Positions 29,570 to 39,984 of a DNA stretch of 47,026 bases are shown piece by piece. The number at the start of each line of letters is the position of its first letter. Positions within the stretch are counted from its first letter, which is position 1. The notes under the pieces are model-generated. The model searched no databases and had not been told where the DNA came from. It was given only the letters and a program-made list of their open reading frames with translations. Source of the stretch: a virus. The position numbers and the translations under genes are program-made. The stretch is taken from IMG/VR virus record IMGVR_UViG_3300009788_000148, positions 1 through 47,026 of that record, one strand, 5' to 3'.

Positions 29570-31441
29570 ATATCTAAAGAAGTAAAGGACAATATTAATG
29601 AGAATTTGGACAACTCCAAAGTTCTCTCCCACCAGGAAGTAAAGCCTGGTGTACACGAAATGGAAATAGATGTTGGCCCAAAAGGCAGACCTGCAGTTGA
29701 ACTGGCTTATTTAGACCCCCAACGTGGGGATCAGAACCCTCTAAGATTCCATGAGGGTGGTAGGGTTATTACCCGAGACTTTACCCGTCGGGTAGACCTC
29801 GACCTCTTAGTTGGTAAGCCCTCGGTTACCAGGGCCAAGCCTGCGCAGATCTTTCAGAGTGCTATTGATTTTTATAAGGCTAAGGGCCCGTACGGTACCT
29901 GGGTTGATACCCTTTCTAATTTTGCAGCCAAGGGATACAAGAATGATATTGATGACGAAGATATCAAGCTTTTTTATGATACCTGGACGTCCGAAATTGC
30001 TTTTCAAGAGACCGTTGAGAAGATTTTCTTTGACTTCTTTAGAGTCGGAATGGTCCGTACCTTCAAGCTTGTAGGTAAGTTTGATCCCAAGTTGAAGCCA
30101 GAAAATTTTGATGGTGCTGTAAGACGTAAGGCCCAAGCAAATCGCTTTGACACTTCTGATCAGATGAAGAAGTTAATAGCGTATAGAGATGTTGCCGCCG
30201 CCAAAAAGATTTGGTCTAAGTCTTTTGTACCTCTTAAGTATACCCTCCTAAATCCCACACTCGTGGATATTAAAGGTTCCCTACTCTTTGACCAGACAGA
30301 AACCTTCCTAAAGCCAGAGGCTTTTAAGGAGATAGCAGCGCTGTTAAAAAACCCAGCTAAGGCTAGCCCAGAACAAAGGAAGTTTATAACTAGTCTGCCC
30401 CGAGACCTAAAAGATGCGATCAAGAAAAATAAGCCTGTTAAACTACCTCCTGAGTTGGTAGGTAAATGTGACTATCGTCGAATGGATTATGAGAGATATC
30501 CTCAGCCTAAGGCCGCGCGCATGTTTGACGATATGAATTACAAGGATGAACTCAAGAAGGCAGACTATTCTACCTTAGATGGTATTACCAATTACATTCT
30601 TAAGATCACTATTGGTAATGACGAACACCCTGTAACCAGTCAAGCGGAGTTAGAGACAGTAGCTAGGCTGTTTGATACTGCAAGTAAGAGTTTTGATATT
30701 GTATGGAACCATACTCTTCAGGTTGAAAAGATTACTTTCCCTGAGATTTCTCAAATTTTAGGTGTTGATAAGTTTGAGCAGGTTAACGATGATCTGAGTC
30801 AGGCTATGGGAGTTACCCGAGCATTGGTAGATGGAAAACTTCAGGCTAATGCCAAGTCCGTAGAAGCATCTCTTAAAGGTTTTGCTGAGGAAGTGAATTA
30901 TGCCCGGCGCTGCGTAAAGAGATGGATAGATCATGAATATGAAGAAGTGGCTTTGGCGATGGGATTTAGTCGTTATCCCCAGGTCCGCTTCGACGAGAAC
31001 GCTCTCAAGGATGAGATTATGATGATGAGCGTTATTCAGGGAATGATAGATCGACGTATTCTGTCTTATGAGACTGGTATTGAGAAGCTGGGTATGGACT
31101 TCAGCAATGAGCTTGCTAACTTCATCCAAGAGAAGCCCTTGGTTCAAGACGGCACCCTTGGTATTATTGGTTCGCCTTACAATCCAAAGGCTCTTCCCCC
31201 GCAGGGGCCCGTACCTACTCAGGACACCACACCTGGAGGTAAGCCTACTACGGTTACCCAGAAGGATCTTAAGGATTTCCAGAAGAACATTACTGATCTG
31301 GTTACAAAGCAAGTTCAGAAGATTCAGAGAACCCCAGTGGGTACTCCGAGCGAGGGCCGTCCCCGAACAGGGGGTAAAGGTAAGCCTCGTCAGAAGTCCA
31401 CAAAACCAAACACTAAGCCACGCCAGCCTAACAATAGTTAG
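29570..31441 (+). CDS. Portal protein, probable non-canonical ATA start
   Basis: At least 611 residues if started at TTG 29606, which has no ribosome site. A perfect AGGAGAG at 29559-29565 instead points to ATA 29570, giving MSKEVKDNINENLDN as the N-terminus and 623 residues. The frame is open from 29561 with no ATG, GTG or CTG. Size, position after the large terminase, and features such as GPYGTWVDTLSNFA, YRRMDYERYPQPKAARMF and a Pro/Lys-rich disordered tail fit a phage portal, the dodecameric DNA gate at the head vertex. The middle contains helical segments that would form the tunnel. Family call is by synteny and general resemblance. Confidence 0.75.
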   Translation: MSKEVKDNINENLDNSKVLSHQEVKPGVHEMEIDVGPKGRPAVELAYLDPQRGDQNPLRFHEGGRVITRDFTRRVDLDLLVGKPSVTRAKPAQIFQSAIDFYKAKGPYGTWVDTLSNFAAKGYKNDIDDEDIKLFYDTWTSEIAFQETVEKIFFDFFRVGMVRTFKLVGKFDPKLKPENFDGAVRRKAQANRFDTSDQMKKLIAYRDVAAAKKIWSKSFVPLKYTLLNPTLVDIKGSLLFDQTETFLKPEAFKEIAALLKNPAKASPEQRKFITSLPRDLKDAIKKNKPVKLPPELVGKCDYRRMDYERYPQPKAARMFDDMNYKDELKKADYSTLDGITNYILKITIGNDEHPVTSQAELETVARLFDTASKSFDIVWNHTLQVEKITFPEISQILGVDKFEQVNDDLSQAMGVTRALVDGKLQANAKSVEASLKGFAEEVNYARRCVKRWIDHEYEEVALAMGFSRYPQVRFDENALKDEIMMMSVIQGMIDRRILSYETGIEKLGMDFSNELANFIQEKPLVQDGTLGIIGSPYNPKALPPQGPVPTQDTTPGGKPTTVTQKDLKDFQKNITDLVTKQVQKIQRTPVGTPSEGRPRTGGKGKPRQKSTKPNTKPRQPNNS

Positions 31442-31473: not shown

Positions 31474-33825
31474 ATGACTGAAAAGAACGTAGACAAGAAC
31501 GTTGACGTCCAGAGCTTTCTCGAAGAGTTGAGAGGGTTAGCTGTGGTCGTAGGCGAAGATTGTCCAGAAGGGCATCGCAAAGATCCGGGCAGCGGACGAT
31601 GCTTGCCGATTGGACCTACCGACCATACCGCATTTACACGAAGTCTAAACGTTGACTATGGTCCGGAGTGGAGGGGTGAAGTTGATAAGACTAATACCAC
31701 CTTTGCCAGTTCGCAAGAGACAGCGGTTGACGCAGACGATATGGATGAACCAGAGAGTTGTGCTGAAGGCACAACTTTTTCTTTTATCCAGAGACGATGT
31801 GTTTCTCTGGAAGACGCAGACAAGGAGAATGATGACGAATTCGCCATGACTGAAGAAGGTGAATATATTGAAGATGCGAAAAACGGCCACGAAGAGGTTA
31901 TTGCCCTAGATCCAGAGGGACGTAAGGATACTGTTAACTTTGAGTGTCCTACCAATATGTTCTTTGATCGTAAGTTGAGAGAGTGTATTCCGCTGAACAA
32001 GGATACTGTATTAGCATCCACTGATTTCAGCGACGAGTTTAAGCAGGCGGTGGCTACCTTTGCTAGGCTCGCAATGACTTCTCCAGACCCAGTGGATGGC
32101 CACAAGCATGTGGCAACGCTAGATATGGAGGGTAATGGGGTTACGTCCGTAGCAGGGCACATGCACCCGCACAGTCATGAGGTCAAGAAGTTCAATGTTG
32201 TTCCCCGTACAGAGACAGCGGGAGATATCACATATACTTCCCAGCACCCTGGAGTTGCTGTACCTGAGGAACATCGTGTAGAAAAGCTTGATGATTTCGG
32301 AAGCGACGAGACCGCAGCACCGCTCAAGGGCGGTCAGAGATCTGCTCTTCCCGATAGCGCCTTTGGCGTCCCCGGAAAGAGGAAGTTTCCTCTAGACACC
32401 TGCGCCCGCGTACGCAACGCGATGGCCCGCTTTAACCAAGGTAAGGGACTAACCTCTGGTGAGAAGGCAACTCTTCGCCGGAAGATTATGGCCCGAGCTA
32501 AGGCTTGTAGCATAGAAGTTCAAAACTTTGGCAAGGCAGACACTGTTGAAGAGTTTGCCGCCGTGGTACAGGAGCTAATCACAATGGATAATAAGACAAC
32601 TGAAGATAGAATTGAGACCTACCGGGCAGAAGCTCAGGGTCAAGGCCCCTGCCCTCCCGGTATGAATTGGGATTCCGCAGCCCTACGCTGCACTAAGGTT
32701 TCCGGATTTGTCAAAGAGATCGCAGCAAATGGACATGAGGATATCGTTGCGTTGCAGCCAGATGGGCGCAGAGACACAGTTGGGTTCAATTGCCCTTCAG
32801 GTTGGTTCTTTGATTTTACCAACCGGCGCTGCCTTCCGCTAGACCCTTCCCAAAAGCCGGGGTCTACCACGGATAAGGCTGCTGAACGAGACCTAACCGC
32901 TCAGCCTGAAGGACGCCCTGTTCGACTTCCTATTGACTGTCCTGCGGGCACGATTTGGAATAAGGACAGAAACGTGTGCATTCCTCTAGACAGCAGCAAG
33001 AAGACTAAGTCTGCTGAAGAAGAGGAAGCTGCCCTACCAGACTTCATCAAGAAGATTCAGGAGAAGAAGAAGAACGGTAAGGACGGCGACGACAAGAATG
33101 GTAAGAAGAAGAAGGGATTCGTACCGTTTACCAAGAAGAGCAAGTCTGAAGAAGAAGATGGCGCCGTGCACCCTGGCACGACCACCACAAATGGCCCTGG
33201 CAACAAGGGAGGCCCCGGCTGTCCTGAAGGCCAGTTCATGAATCCCGTCACTAAGAAGTGCATGCCTGGAAAGGGTGCCTTTAAGGGTAAGAGTACGCAG
33301 GAAGATGCAGATGCCAAGCCTCAGAATAGAGAAGGATTAACTCCTCCTCCTGCAGGGAAGGTACAGCACCCTACGGACTGCCCGCCCAATACTGCTTGGG
33401 ACGCTAAGAGTAAGGTTTGCCGACCAATTGACTCTATGGACAAGGATCGACCTTCCGGCGCAAGCCCTCAGAATCCTAAGTCCGTAGCGGATGAGCTTAC
33501 AACTGCTCAGATCATTCAGGTCCTCGATGATATCATCAAGGGACTCGGCGAGCAGGAGAAGAGCAAGGTTCTTGCAAAGGAACTACCTAACGCGGCTTTC
33601 CCGCCTTCTCTAGTAAGTGACAGTCACCGTAGCCTCATGCATCACAAGTCGGATGTTGTAGATCCGTACGACACTGCTTCTGTAGATGTAGCTAGACTAC
33701 GAAATTCTCTGTTCCGCGCAACCGCAGTCAAGGAATTCTCTGACAAAGCGATTGAGGACGGCATCGACCATCTTCTATTCCACGCCCGCGAAATCGTGGC
33801 GGAGAGAATTGAAAAAAAATCCTAA
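31474..33825 (+). CDS. Cys-repeat virion protein, 0-frame product
   Basis: 783 residues, ATG after AGGAGG. It contains eight pairs of cysteines with identical C-x12-C spacing (C30-C43, C96-C109, C158-C171, C393-C406, C440-C453, C489-C502, C583-C596, C636-C649), usually CPxG...CxPLD. Two longer blocks (NGHEEVIALDPEGRKDTV at 138 and NGHEDIVALQPDGRRDTV at 420) are duplicated. A His-rich stretch (HVATLDMEGNG, then GHMHPHSHE at ~228-236) and an FGVPGKRKFPLDTCARVRNA module (~297) are typical of phage head-associated proteins. It lies between portal and prohead protease. It ends on an A8 run with evidence of -1 frameshifting. Confidence 0.75.
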   Translation: MTEKNVDKNVDVQSFLEELRGLAVVVGEDCPEGHRKDPGSGRCLPIGPTDHTAFTRSLNVDYGPEWRGEVDKTNTTFASSQETAVDADDMDEPESCAEGTTFSFIQRRCVSLEDADKENDDEFAMTEEGEYIEDAKNGHEEVIALDPEGRKDTVNFECPTNMFFDRKLRECIPLNKDTVLASTDFSDEFKQAVATFARLAMTSPDPVDGHKHVATLDMEGNGVTSVAGHMHPHSHEVKKFNVVPRTETAGDITYTSQHPGVAVPEEHRVEKLDDFGSDETAAPLKGGQRSALPDSAFGVPGKRKFPLDTCARVRNAMARFNQGKGLTSGEKATLRRKIMARAKACSIEVQNFGKADTVEEFAAVVQELITMDNKTTEDRIETYRAEAQGQGPCPPGMNWDSAALRCTKVSGFVKEIAANGHEDIVALQPDGRRDTVGFNCPSGWFFDFTNRRCLPLDPSQKPGSTTDKAAERDLTAQPEGRPVRLPIDCPAGTIWNKDRNVCIPLDSSKKTKSAEEEEAALPDFIKKIQEKKKNGKDGDDKNGKKKKGFVPFTKKSKSEEEDGAVHPGTTTTNGPGNKGGPGCPEGQFMNPVTKKCMPGKGAFKGKSTQEDADAKPQNREGLTPPPAGKVQHPTDCPPNTAWDAKSKVCRPIDSMDKDRPSGASPQNPKSVADELTTAQIIQVLDDIIKGLGEQEKSKVLAKELPNAAFPPSLVSDSHRSLMHHKSDVVDPYDTASVDVARLRNSLFRATAVKEFSDKAIEDGIDHLLFHAREIVAERIEKKS

Positions 33826-33877
33826 GCGGATGGACTGAAGAAGGTCAGATAACTAATCCAGAGGAGTTTCATCCGCT
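33812..33877 (+). other. -1 programmed ribosomal frameshift signal (A8 slippery run plus stem)
   Basis: The zero-frame codons GAA AAA AAA TCC TAA contain a perfect A AAA AAA heptamer (33813-33819). Five nt downstream, AGCGGATG (33825-33832) pairs perfectly with CATCCGCT (33870-33877), and the stem extends inward by a G-T and an A-T pair. A smaller CTGA/TCAG hairpin sits in the loop. A GGAGAG at 33801-33806 upstream resembles the internal ribosome-site stimulator of E. coli dnaX. All three elements of a bacterial -1 signal are visible. Confidence 0.75.
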
Positions 33878-34304
33878 GTGCCAACCCCAGGAAGTCTTTG
33901 ATCCTAAGTCTGGATCATGTATTCCCCTCGTTAATGTTGAGGGGGCTGACCCCGTTGGTACATTGGAATGCCCCGATGGGTGGGTATTAGATGAAGAACT
34001 CAATATGTGCGTCCCTGCGAGTGCTATAGACCAGGCCTCCCATAACGGCACTGATTTTACAGGCAGATTATCAGATGTGCCTAAAGAGTTGAGGCCTAAG
34101 AAGCCAAAAAAGAAGAAGCGGATCACAGCCACCGATCTGCTCAGAGAGATTAATGAGAATGCAGCACCATTCAAACCAACAGATAAGATGGAACGTTGTA
34201 TTCAAGATGTTAAATCTCGTTTGAGAAAGAGTAAGAAAACCTTTAAAGACCAAAGCATTAAGAGTGCCGCGATAGCTATATGTAGATCACGACTAAAGCA
34301 ATAA
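33813..34304 (+). CDS. -1 frame extension of the Cys-repeat protein
   Basis: The frame is open from 33813 to TAA 34302-34304 with no ATG or GTG and no ribosome site before TTG 33963, so it cannot readily start on its own. Joined through the A8 slip it adds 161 residues (total 943). It begins ILSGWTEEGQ, then has two further C-x12-C repeats (HPLCQPQEVFDPKSGSCIPL; CPDGWVLDEELNMC), the same spacing as the eight upstream. It ends with a basic stretch and an MERCIQDVKSRL...AAIAIC module common in phage head proteins. The conserved repeat spacing shows that the two frames code one protein. Confidence 0.75.
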   Translation, partial: KKILSGWTEEGQITNPEEFHPLCQPQEVFDPKSGSCIPLVNVEGADPVGTLECPDGWVLDEELNMCVPASAIDQASHNGTDFTGRLSDVPKELRPKKPKKKKRITATDLLREINENAAPFKPTDKMERCIQDVKSRLRKSKKTFKDQSIKSAAIAICRSRLKQ

Positions 34305-34760: not shown

Positions 34761-36155
34761 ATGGTAGAAGATAATAAGGTTAGGGTATACGCGCCTATCC
34801 AGGTCCAGGAGGAAGTGGAATCAGCCGCTCTAGAGAAGGCGTCTGTCCTATCTTTTCCCGAGGAAAAACAGGGAGATCTTCAGTATATTCGTTCTATTCT
34901 AGTTTCAGCAGGGACTAATAAGAACGGAGCCCATTTTCTCCCCTCCGAGATGATGAGAGCCCATAATACCGTCGTCAATAAAGCCATTGACATTGAACAT
35001 GCCGAAGATAAAGTAATTGGACACATTTATGAATGCGCCTTTCTGTTCAAGGATGGGGAGCAGTTTGACCCCACAAAGATTATGGCAGAGTTCGAGGAAA
35101 CCGCTCGAGATCCAGACAGTTTGGATATAGATATCTTGGCCGCAGGTATTATCCACAAGATGCGTTTCCCTGAATTAGCAGAAGAAATCTCAGGTGGGGA
35201 TTGGAAGGTAAGCATGGAGTGTTACTTCAAGAATTTCGACATTAAGGTCGGAGAACAGATTATTACTAGAGATGAAGCCCAGTCGTTGGGCTACAATCCT
35301 GATGATCTTGTGGGCGGTTTTGTTAAAGTGATGGCGGGCCAGAAAGCCTTAGGTAAGCATTTTGTTTCTAGAGTTCTACGAAACATTACCTTCAGTGGGA
35401 TGGGAATCGTAAAGAACCCTGCCAATCCTCACTCCATTATCATGGAGACTGCGTCTCATCGAGAGCAAATGGAAAGGGGTGAGCAAGTTGTGGATCTAGA
35501 ACAGATAGATAATTTACGAGGACATAAAGTTGAACTTTCTTCCAGCAAGGAAGAAATACCCCAGGAAGAAATTGCAGCCCAAGTTAAAGTGATATCCGAA
35601 GAGGGAGATATGGAAGTACAAGACCAGATCTATGTAGAGTTGGACAAGGAAACTGGTGGAATTAAAAGAGTCTTAACTGTTGGAGGCAAGGAGGATGCAG
35701 CTCTACGTTGGACAGGCCCCGGTATTGGTGGTCCTGGATCAATATCCTCCTTCCCAGACAGTGTTTGTAAGAGCTTCAAAAAGAGAGTTACTAAGTTTAA
35801 TGCGCTTGACCAGTCAGAAGGTCAGGTCGTACATGAGCACTGGTGTGCTCTATTTGAAGAGGCTTGTCCCGTTATTGGTGCCACTTCAAAGGCACCTGAG
35901 TGTTTAAGGAATGCCAGGAATAGAACTACTCGGGATGAGGAAGACAATACTCTTACCAAGACGGTGAGAGAACATGTTGATGATGCCCCGGGAAATACAT
36001 TCGTAACTGTCCTGAACACCCCAGTCTTGTCCAAGGACGCAGCAAGCGTTCATTCTGAGAGACATGATCAGGTAACCAGGATCCGATCAGAAGCAGAGGA
36101 ACTTAGAAATTCTCTTCGATCTTTTGTTGCGGCCGAAAAAAAAACTTCAGAATAA
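34761..36155 (+). CDS. Prohead protease (head maturation protease), 0-frame product
   Basis: 464 residues, ATG after AGGAGG. The N-terminal ~200 residues fit a phage prohead serine protease that cleaves scaffold and capsid N-termini during head maturation: NKNGAHFLPSEMMRAHNT, then the catalytic His in DIEHAEDKVIG (H80) and the Ser nucleophile in WKVSMECYF (S151). SGMGIVKNPANP closes the domain. The C-terminal ~200 residues are an acidic/hinged extension (EEIPQEEIAAQVKVISEEG) with a Cys-containing module near the end. The frame ends 4 codons after an A9 run with an open -1 frame behind it. Confidence 0.78.
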   Translation: MVEDNKVRVYAPIQVQEEVESAALEKASVLSFPEEKQGDLQYIRSILVSAGTNKNGAHFLPSEMMRAHNTVVNKAIDIEHAEDKVIGHIYECAFLFKDGEQFDPTKIMAEFEETARDPDSLDIDILAAGIIHKMRFPELAEEISGGDWKVSMECYFKNFDIKVGEQIITRDEAQSLGYNPDDLVGGFVKVMAGQKALGKHFVSRVLRNITFSGMGIVKNPANPHSIIMETASHREQMERGEQVVDLEQIDNLRGHKVELSSSKEEIPQEEIAAQVKVISEEGDMEVQDQIYVELDKETGGIKRVLTVGGKEDAALRWTGPGIGGPGSISSFPDSVCKSFKKRVTKFNALDQSEGQVVHEHWCALFEEACPVIGATSKAPECLRNARNRTTRDEEDNTLTKTVREHVDDAPGNTFVTVLNTPVLSKDAASVHSERHDQVTRIRSEAEELRNSLRSFVAAEKKTSE

Positions 36156-36182
36156 TTAGTGAGCCAATTGAGGCCTCCTCAG
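36136..36182 (+). other. Second -1 frameshift signal (A9 run)
   Basis: Nine A (36136-36144) give the codons GAA AAA AAA ACT; A AAA AAA occupies 36137-36143. After a -1 slip translation continues AAC TTC AGA and stays open to 36472. A TTGAGG/CCTCAG hairpin with a 3-nt loop (36168-36182) lies 24 nt downstream, farther than usual. There is no clear upstream stimulator. Long A runs also invite sequencing error, so confidence is lower than for the A8 site. Confidence 0.6.
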
Positions 36183-36472
36183 TCATAACTTCGAACAAGG
36201 TTATTAGATATAAGAAGAAGATGGATGCTTTTAAGACTGCACAGGCTTTAGAACCATCCTCACAACGAGAAAAGGTAGGAGGATTTGTACTTTTTGTGGG
36301 ATCTGGTCCTGATGTAATTGAGGTAGGTTTAGATCGCGAGGTTGCGGTTGAGAAGGCTGTAGAAATTCTGAAGGAAAATGACACAGCTGTATTCTTATCC
36401 AAACTGCAATCCAAATTTGGAGAAGTTTACGTTACGAAAGATCAGCTGATCCTTACAAGGAAATCAGACTAA
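36143..36472 (+). CDS. -1 frame extension of the prohead protease
   Basis: 109 codons open from the A9 slip. The only ATG is at 36221, without a convincing ribosome site. Joined to the protease the product would be 570 residues. It begins NFRIISEPIEASSV and continues through a basic helix (VIRYKKKMDAFKTAQALEP) into a small beta-alpha domain (GGFVLFVGSGPDVIEVGLDRE, then a helix VEKAVEILKEN). Alternatively, the part from 36221 is a separate 83-residue gene. Function unknown. The last 46 nt of this frame are repeated at 37108-37156. Confidence 0.65.
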   Translation, partial: NFRIISEPIEASSVITSNKVIRYKKKMDAFKTAQALEPSSQREKVGGFVLFVGSGPDVIEVGLDREVAVEKAVEILKENDTAVFLSKLQSKFGEVYVTKDQLILTRKSD

Positions 36473-38916: not shown

Positions 38917-39984
38917 ATGGACAAGCAAAAGCTTGCTGAATTGTTTCACGCAACTGCTGCATTCGACTCTCCTGAGGGCGTCGAAGCATATAAGGCCTTC
39001 GCACAGGCACTAACGGTGCCCATTCTCCAGGAAATTAGAGACGCATCTATTATGCGGCAGCTCTTTGCTGTTGAGCGGCTCGCCCCTGGTGCTCAGGCCG
39101 TATATCCGGTTGCTGACGATTTCGAGGTCCCAGTATTCGTACTGCCCGGTCTCGGATATATCGCACAGAACTTCATCGAAGGCGTTGGTGAGGAAGTATA
39201 TGTCCCTACCTTCTCCATTTCCGTATCTGCGGATTGGAAGGTAACTTACGCCCGAGATTCGCGAATCGACATTCCCGAGAGGGCTGCTCGAAACGCTGCA
39301 CGCGCAATTGCTGACTTCGAGGAAGAGTCGGGTTGGCGAGTAATCGTTCCTGGTGGAACGACCAACTTCGCTGGTCAGGGTCTAATCGGATCCCGTAACG
39401 CGCCTATTTTCCAGGTTCCTGCCGGTGCTACCGGTGAGAAGTTCCTTTCTAAGGAGCTAATCAACCTGATGATGGTCGGTATGAAGAGAGTTCGCCGATC
39501 CCTAACTGATCTCTATATTTCCCCTGAAGATGCCGCTGACGTACGTGAGTGGACTGACACTCAGGTTGACCCGGTCACTCGCCGAGAGATTTTCCAGGCT
39601 GCTGGTATGGGTCGAATTTGGAACATCAATCTACATGAAGTATTCCAGCTTGGTGCTACTGGTCGATTTAACATCAACCAGAACGGCGCTACTTTTGGTA
39701 TCTTCCAGGTTGATGGCGGCGGAGATTTCAATGACTATACACCTACTAACGTTAACACTGTTGACGCTAATGGTAACGTCACTACCGCTGGTGAGACTCA
39801 GGTATGGGGATTCGATCTTTCCGTTAACGACTCCCTCGTTATGCCTATTCGAAAGGAATATGAGGCACACGACGATCCAACATTACTCCGACAGCAGAAG
39901 CAAGGTTTCTTCGGCTGGGAGGAAGTTGGTTTCGCACTTCTCGATTCTCGAATGGTTCAACTGGGCGTTATCGACCGATCGTAA
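38917..39984 (+). CDS. Major capsid protein (HK97-fold type)
   Basis: 355 residues, ATG with perfect AAGGAGGA. Features fit an HK97-fold capsid protein: an N-terminal helix region, a backbone-helix-like segment (ARNAARAIADFEEESGWRVI, residues ~125-145), RRSLTDLYISPEDAADVREW (a characteristic spine segment), and ending GFFGWEEVGFALLDSRMVQLGVI. No long pro-domain is apparent, so proteolysis may mainly act on the scaffold. It should be the most abundant product of the window. Very strong hairpins follow the gene. Confidence 0.88.
   Translation: MDKQKLAELFHATAAFDSPEGVEAYKAFAQALTVPILQEIRDASIMRQLFAVERLAPGAQAVYPVADDFEVPVFVLPGLGYIAQNFIEGVGEEVYVPTFSISVSADWKVTYARDSRIDIPERAARNAARAIADFEEESGWRVIVPGGTTNFAGQGLIGSRNAPIFQVPAGATGEKFLSKELINLMMVGMKRVRRSLTDLYISPEDAADVREWTDTQVDPVTRREIFQAAGMGRIWNINLHEVFQLGATGRFNINQNGATFGIFQVDGGGDFNDYTPTNVNTVDANGNVTTAGETQVWGFDLSVNDSLVMPIRKEYEAHDDPTLLRQQKQGFFGWEEVGFALLDSRMVQLGVIDRS

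Follow-up and report, generated by a model that had tools for sequence, protein, structure and literature searches.

A probable programmed -1 ribosomal frameshift at the end of a portal-adjacent Cys-repeat gene in a family of uncultured tailed phages

Described recoding systems and the portal-adjacent locus

Frameshifting is familiar from the tail chaperones and the major capsid proteins of phages, and we describe here a signal of this type in a gene adjacent to the portal gene. The lambda G/GT products arise by slippage on G_GGA_AAG, a heptamer close to the G_GGA_AAA found in part of the present family. In lambda a morphogenesis gene gives a longer product by a -1 shift close to its 3' end, as the present gene would. 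However, the gene described here adjoins the portal gene rather than lying between the major tail protein and tape measure genes, and it encodes Cys-repeat beads. The lambda G/GT products are absent from mature virions (PMC5009743). Phage T7 (gp10A/10B), T3, Lactobacillus phage A2 and the Listeria phages PSA, A118 and A500 likewise extend a head protein at its C-terminus by frameshifting, with two frameshifts in each of A2 and PSA (PMC5009743), although the present extension is not an Ig-like domain. The E. coli dnaX (tau/gamma) signal is similar in having an A-rich heptamer, an upstream Shine-Dalgarno-like element, and a stem a few nucleotides downstream; it differs in that dnaX slips on A_AAA_AAG and its shift gives the shorter product, whereas here the shift would give the longer one, and the present Shine-Dalgarno-like element is not conserved. 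The carboxysome shell-assembly protein CsoS2 also has a long and a short form owing to -1 frameshifting, at a site that has a 3' stem but apparently lacks a Shine-Dalgarno element (PMC5009743). The parallel is one of mechanism rather than of demonstrated homology, and the CsoS2 shift yields the short form. Finally, transcriptional slippage occurs on a run of nine in Thermus dnaX and generates a C-terminal extension in Shigella spa13 (PMC5009743); the Thermus run resembles the A9 run of a second site described below (36136-36144), whereas the first site, unlike either system, has runs of four to eight A within a constrained heptamer.

The window, i.e. the whole stretch of DNA analyzed, is IMG/VR record IMGVR_UViG_3300009788_000148 (47,026 nt), and all coordinates are positions within it unless prefixed by a contig name. 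The Cys-repeat gene directly follows the portal gene, and two small genes separate it from a putative prohead protease gene (464 aa) downstream. The features of the first switch are as follows.

29606-31441, + strand, portal protein gene, immediately upstream (PHROG 2739, E 7e-9; distant tblastn match to the Bacillus phage G portal, E 6e-10)
31474-33825, + strand, 0-frame gene for the short product, 783 aa, comprising eight C-x12-C units and a region matching DUF6582 (open reading frame list, translation, Pfam, unit count)
33813-33819, + strand, candidate slip heptamer A_AAA_AAA, in phase, inside the A8 run (in-phase X_XXY_YYZ in 21/21 contigs)
33819-34304, + strand, -1 frame tail, 161 aa, the predicted C-terminal extension of the long product (translation; homologous tails always in the -1 frame; dN/dS about 0.1)
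33879-33920, + strand, C-x12-C unit 9 of the long product, the first in the tail (unit count; predicted beta-hairpin)
33969-34010, + strand, C-x12-C unit 10 of the long product, the second in the tail (unit count; predicted beta-hairpin)
34182-34301, + strand, C-terminal two-helix domain, MERCIQ...AIAICRSRLKQ (pLDDT about 90; replaced by ferritin/Dps in L054 and L059)

The 0-frame gene ends GAA AAA AAA TCC TAA, with the TAA at 33823-33825 and a run of eight A at 33812-33819. The first-pass annotation had proposed a frameshift at this point, and the 783-codon gene, A8 run, in-phase heptamer, GGAGAG and 161-codon open -1 frame on which it relied are all present; recounting the C-x12-C units also bore out its figures, eight for the 0 frame and two for the -1 tail. 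We consider a programmed -1 ribosomal frameshift giving two products from one gene to be very probable (roughly 0.92). Most ribosomes would terminate at the TAA to give the 783-aa protein, and a fraction would slip by -1 on the tandem Lys-Lys codons of A_AAA_AAA (the Gly-Lys codons of G_GGA_AAA in other clades), with help from a stem that begins 5 nt 3' of the heptamer and perhaps also from the upstream GGAGAG. The shifted ribosomes would read 161 more codons to give a protein of about 943 aa, which would gain two C-x12-C units and a C-terminal helical domain, with a predicted junction at which ...ERIEKK is followed by ILSGWTEEGQ (predicted junction peptide ...EKK followed by ILSGWTEEGQITNPEEFHPLCQPQEVFDPK).

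In a structure model of the tail each C-x12-C unit forms one beta-hairpin and the two-helix end is confidently predicted, and a low-confidence model of the 0-frame protein contains hairpin beads separated by disordered linkers; the like hairpins in the two models suggest that one kind of module spans both frames. Fold searches with the tail model and the low-confidence 0-frame model gave nothing at E < 0.001, and a PDB sequence-profile search gave no match. The DUF6582 region of the 0-frame protein is recognized by Pfam at E 4e-7, and CBM_14 (peritrophin-A) matches the repeats with a whole-protein score of 55.9 bits, a score to be read with the facts that single stretches fail alone and that about 22 residues align. 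In L074 (5889-8525), a MAG contig binned with some uncertainty as Candidatus Altiarchaeales, the DUF6582 region is present twice in the 0-frame protein.

The gene can be distinguished from two described classes. A lambda-type tail assembly chaperone does not fit a gene situated between the portal and putative protease genes, and a frameshifted major capsid protein of the T7/A2 type does not fit a genome in which the major head protein is encoded separately (38917-39984; PHROG 2522, E 2e-12). The 464-aa protein is probably the prohead protease, judging from its position and its His/Ser motifs. Its homologue directly follows the portal gene in phage Slash and in contig L075, and directly or nearly so in L076; the Cys-repeat gene is therefore an addition in the present clade. 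The search with the putative protease identified three MAG contigs, two of which (L075 and L076) do not contain the Cys-repeat gene; genome contigs searched with the portal protein yielded nothing. In L076 (2391-5561) the terminase large subunit gene is split by an intein with a LAGLIDADG domain.

Conservation of the frame switch among relatives

Relatives were gathered by scans with the tail, the portal protein, and the downstream 464-aa protein, and 20 distinct contigs contain both gene and tail: the window, L003, L006, L046, L047, L048, L049, L051, L053, L054, L055, L056, L058, L059, L060, L061, L062, L063, L064 and L074. L022 contains the gene end only and brings the number to 21 for heptamer counts; duplicates at the locus (L002 of the window, L057 of L063) were left out of the count. 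A match to the pattern A8TCCTAAGCGG in an unrelated phage contig (L008) is attributed to chance. L063 (297,725 bases) and L057 (196,567 bases), both from IMG/VR, have identical locus coordinates and junction sequence, and their sizes suggest that some members may be very large phages.

First, the tail lies in the -1 frame in 20/20 distinct contigs, and its reading frame is preserved over deep divergence. Relatives in which the protein stays in a single frame, which the first-pass annotation had named as evidence against its proposal, do not occur among these 20, including those with A7 or GGGAAAA sites. Secondly, all 21 contigs have an in-phase X_XXY_YYZ heptamer at the gene end, as compared with a background of 0.63% of in-phase positions (XXXYYYZ) in the same open reading frames; the comparison with related phages that had been suggested as a check thus found the run either kept (A_AAA_AAA, 12 contigs) or exchanged for G_GGA_AAA (nine). 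The distance from the X base to the stop is 10 nt in 20 of the 21 and 7 nt in L059. Thirdly, lysine codons inside the slip sites are AAA in 33/33 cases, with 282 AAA to 1125 AAG elsewhere in the genes, and in L054 the slip site holds the only AAA codon of the gene. When mapped on a family tree from which the last 8 residues had been left out, the heptamer type requires about three changes, of which well-supported branches force only one. Fourthly, pairs of tails with measurable dS give dN/dS values of 0.09-0.19, and among 18 tails the Cys residues and an FDPKSG motif are invariant or almost so. L056 (3336-3848), L062 (5162-5674) and L064 (5995-6510) have an insertion of about 50 codons, rich in charged residues, in the tail 3' of the slip site but ahead of the first C-x12-C unit.

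The site therefore has the properties of the X_XXY_YYZ class, an in-phase heptamer in a frame overlap followed by -1 coding sequence that is under selection and has no start of its own. At the level of sequence comparison the signal, its conservation, the constant frame, and the purifying selection on the tail are demonstrated; we infer that the ribosome is the slipping agent, and the long form would be the minor product. In E. coli A_AAA_AAG promotes shifting more readily than does A_AAA_AAA (PMC5009743), and the efficiency here may therefore be low.

An alternative agent is RNA polymerase, which by inserting one A would allow part of the mRNA to be read through. The A8 run of the window is nearly as long as the A9 runs that cause efficient slippage of bacterial polymerase (PMC5009743) and could contribute some slippage of its own. 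However, relatives retain the switch on A runs of 4-7, they preserve an in-phase X_XXY_YYZ that polymerase slippage does not need, and the exchange between A_AAA_AAA and G_GGA_AAA makes transcriptional slippage less likely. Moreover, the adjacent second site, with A9-A10 in all contigs, exemplifies the form that a slippage-type site would take here; the runs of 4-8 A at the first site are shorter than the homopolymer of about nine A/T expected of such sites, whereas those at the second are 9-10 in 20/20. We therefore regard transcriptional slippage as a highly improbable explanation of the first site.

It is very improbable that the tail is a separate gene, whether it has its own start or is translated by ribosomes that re-initiate past the TAA. 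Phages commonly use stop-coupled re-initiation, and the tail of the window, which the first-pass annotation had described as lacking ATG or GTG, does contain an ATG (34005) and a GTG (34077) as well as a TTG (33963). However, none of these precedes codon 49, such that codons 1-48, which lack ATG, GTG and TTG, include the entire first C-x12-C unit and conserved sequence. The available starts are 3' of that unit, their positions are not common to the relatives, and the sequence that precedes the first starts, GQIT.PEEFHP.C..EEVFDPKSGSC, is conserved in nearly all contigs.

A sequencing or assembly indel, with a true run of nine A and one continuous open reading frame, might be suspected in a metagenomic virus record, given that A runs are error-prone. 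Yet independent contigs from other samples, including a MAG contig, show the same frame; L006 and L048 have A7 followed by G; L054, L061 and L063 have GGGAAAA, with merely four A; and the 0-frame stop is at a constant distance in all but one contig. The heptamer exchange and the constant -1 frame at non-A8 sites exclude an A-run indel for the family, and for the window itself we hold it to be extremely improbable. The probability is negligible that an ancestral frameshift mutation left a decayed, non-coding tail, a reading to which the short tails of L063 (72 aa), L058 (82 aa) and L061 (109 aa) might point but which is refuted by the selection pattern, with dN/dS of about 0.1 and a frame kept across deep divergence.

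Candidate stimulatory elements

Three elements flanking the heptamer could assist programmed -1 ribosomal frameshifting.

33801-33806, + strand, GGAGAG, Shine-Dalgarno-like, a candidate 5' stimulator confined to this subclade (window, p = 0.033 relative to synonymous shuffles)
33825-33834, + strand, 5' arm of the downstream stem (pairing, shuffle test, clade comparison)
33868-33877, + strand, 3' arm of the downstream stem (pairing; one pair changes from A-U to G-U in L003 and to G-C in L074)

The perfect 8-bp stem described by the first-pass annotation is present, beginning 5 nt 3' of the heptamer, with AGCGGATG (33825-33832) pairing with CATCCGCT (33870-33877), and it extends to 10 bp when one G-U and one A-U pair are added. 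When stems starting 4-9 nt after the heptamer were compared with synonymous-codon shuffles, p was 0.024 for the window, 0.014-0.027 for L003, L046, L047 and L048, and 0.003-0.005 for L049, L051 and L058; the positioned stem was not significant in L054/L061/L063, L056/L062/L064, L055, L059 or L060. The combined value of 2e-7 overstates the case because the relatives are not independent. The minimum free energy of the region downstream of the site is ordinary in the window relative to shuffles, and only the positioned stem is unusual.

Stems were counted per clade because a 9-nt length difference misplaces the arms in an all-clade alignment. Within the window's group the core GGATGG/CCATCC pairs in 9/9 members; a second group has a different stem of up to 11 bp in the same place (GCACTGAGGGT/ATCCTCAGTGC), and that of L074 is 10 bp. 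Formal within-group covariation is slight, with 114/500 and 82/500 shuffles scoring as high. Stem conservation, also proposed as a check, thus holds in the window's clade; a second clade has a stem of other sequence, and in the remaining ones the stem is weak or lacking. As judged from predicted pairing, several clades have a real 3' stem, but not all do. In the X_XXY_YYZ class a 3' stimulatory structure at 5-9 nt is frequent though dispensable, and a 5' Shine-Dalgarno-like stimulator is optional. The GGAGAG is present only in the window and its closest relative L003 and is not family-wide, and the combined p for Shine-Dalgarno-like elements is 0.016, taken over non-independent relatives.

A second switch and the ends of the first tail

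The putative prohead protease gene has a switch of its own.

34761-36155, + strand, second recoded gene, 464 aa, putative prohead protease (homologue position in Slash and L075/L076; motif)
36136-36144, + strand, second slip site, A9 run (A9 or A10, same phase, 20/20 contigs)
36143-36472, + strand, -1 extension of the second gene, 109 aa (-1 frame conserved in 20/20; no conserved start codon)

This gene ends GAA AAA AAA ACT TCA GAA TAA, and the predicted junction peptide is EKKNFRIISEPIEASSVITSNK. The contigs with this switch include the window, L003, L048, L074 and 16 others; in those with A10 the additional A arises by substitution, leaving the phase unaltered. A start near +66 of the extension is found in some contigs only, and several have none before +204. 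Downstream structure shows no bias at this site (combined p 0.12). Bacterial polymerase slips well on nine consecutive A (PMC5009743), and the second site may therefore work by transcriptional slippage, or alternatively by stimulator-poor ribosomal slippage on the A run. The first site, with 4-8 A and a constrained heptamer, would be of the ribosomal type.

There is also diversity at the C-terminal end of the first tail. In L054 and L059 a ferritin/Dps domain (PF00210) forms the C-terminal part of the frameshifted tail (L054:5643-6521, E 1e-21; L059:5659-6405, E 1e-18), and in L060 (5983-6477) and L074 (8953-9471) a stand-alone Dps-like gene, probably the unfused form, lies directly 3' of the tail. 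The fused and stand-alone arrangements together suggest gene fusion onto the frameshifted end.

The annotation of the Cys-repeat product as a virion protein would follow from its position beside the portal gene, and our best guess from this location is a role for both forms in assembling the head or the portal vertex, in which the extension would equip a limited number of subunits with an extra attachment domain. More tentatively, and as a speculation that we do not favor strongly, two adjacent head-module genes may be recoded differently, one by -1 ribosomal frameshifting and the other by transcriptional slippage, each giving a fixed extended share, with the first tail acting as a swappable port that holds Dps/ferritin in some members.

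The mechanism is known, and the gene and the phage family that carry it are new. Neither the gene nor the tail had a match, at nucleotide or protein level, in the phage records searched, and these records and the papers searched yielded no description of the gene family, an absence that is not itself proof of novelty. The family comprises uncultured tailed phages without members in the phage records searched, and gene callers would miss the 161-aa and 109-aa tails, either dropping them or reporting them as spurious short genes. The natural exchange of heptamers lets one ask what evolution requires in order to retain a frameshift, and the paired sites offer a natural comparison, within one operon, of a ribosomal signal with a candidate polymerase slippage site.
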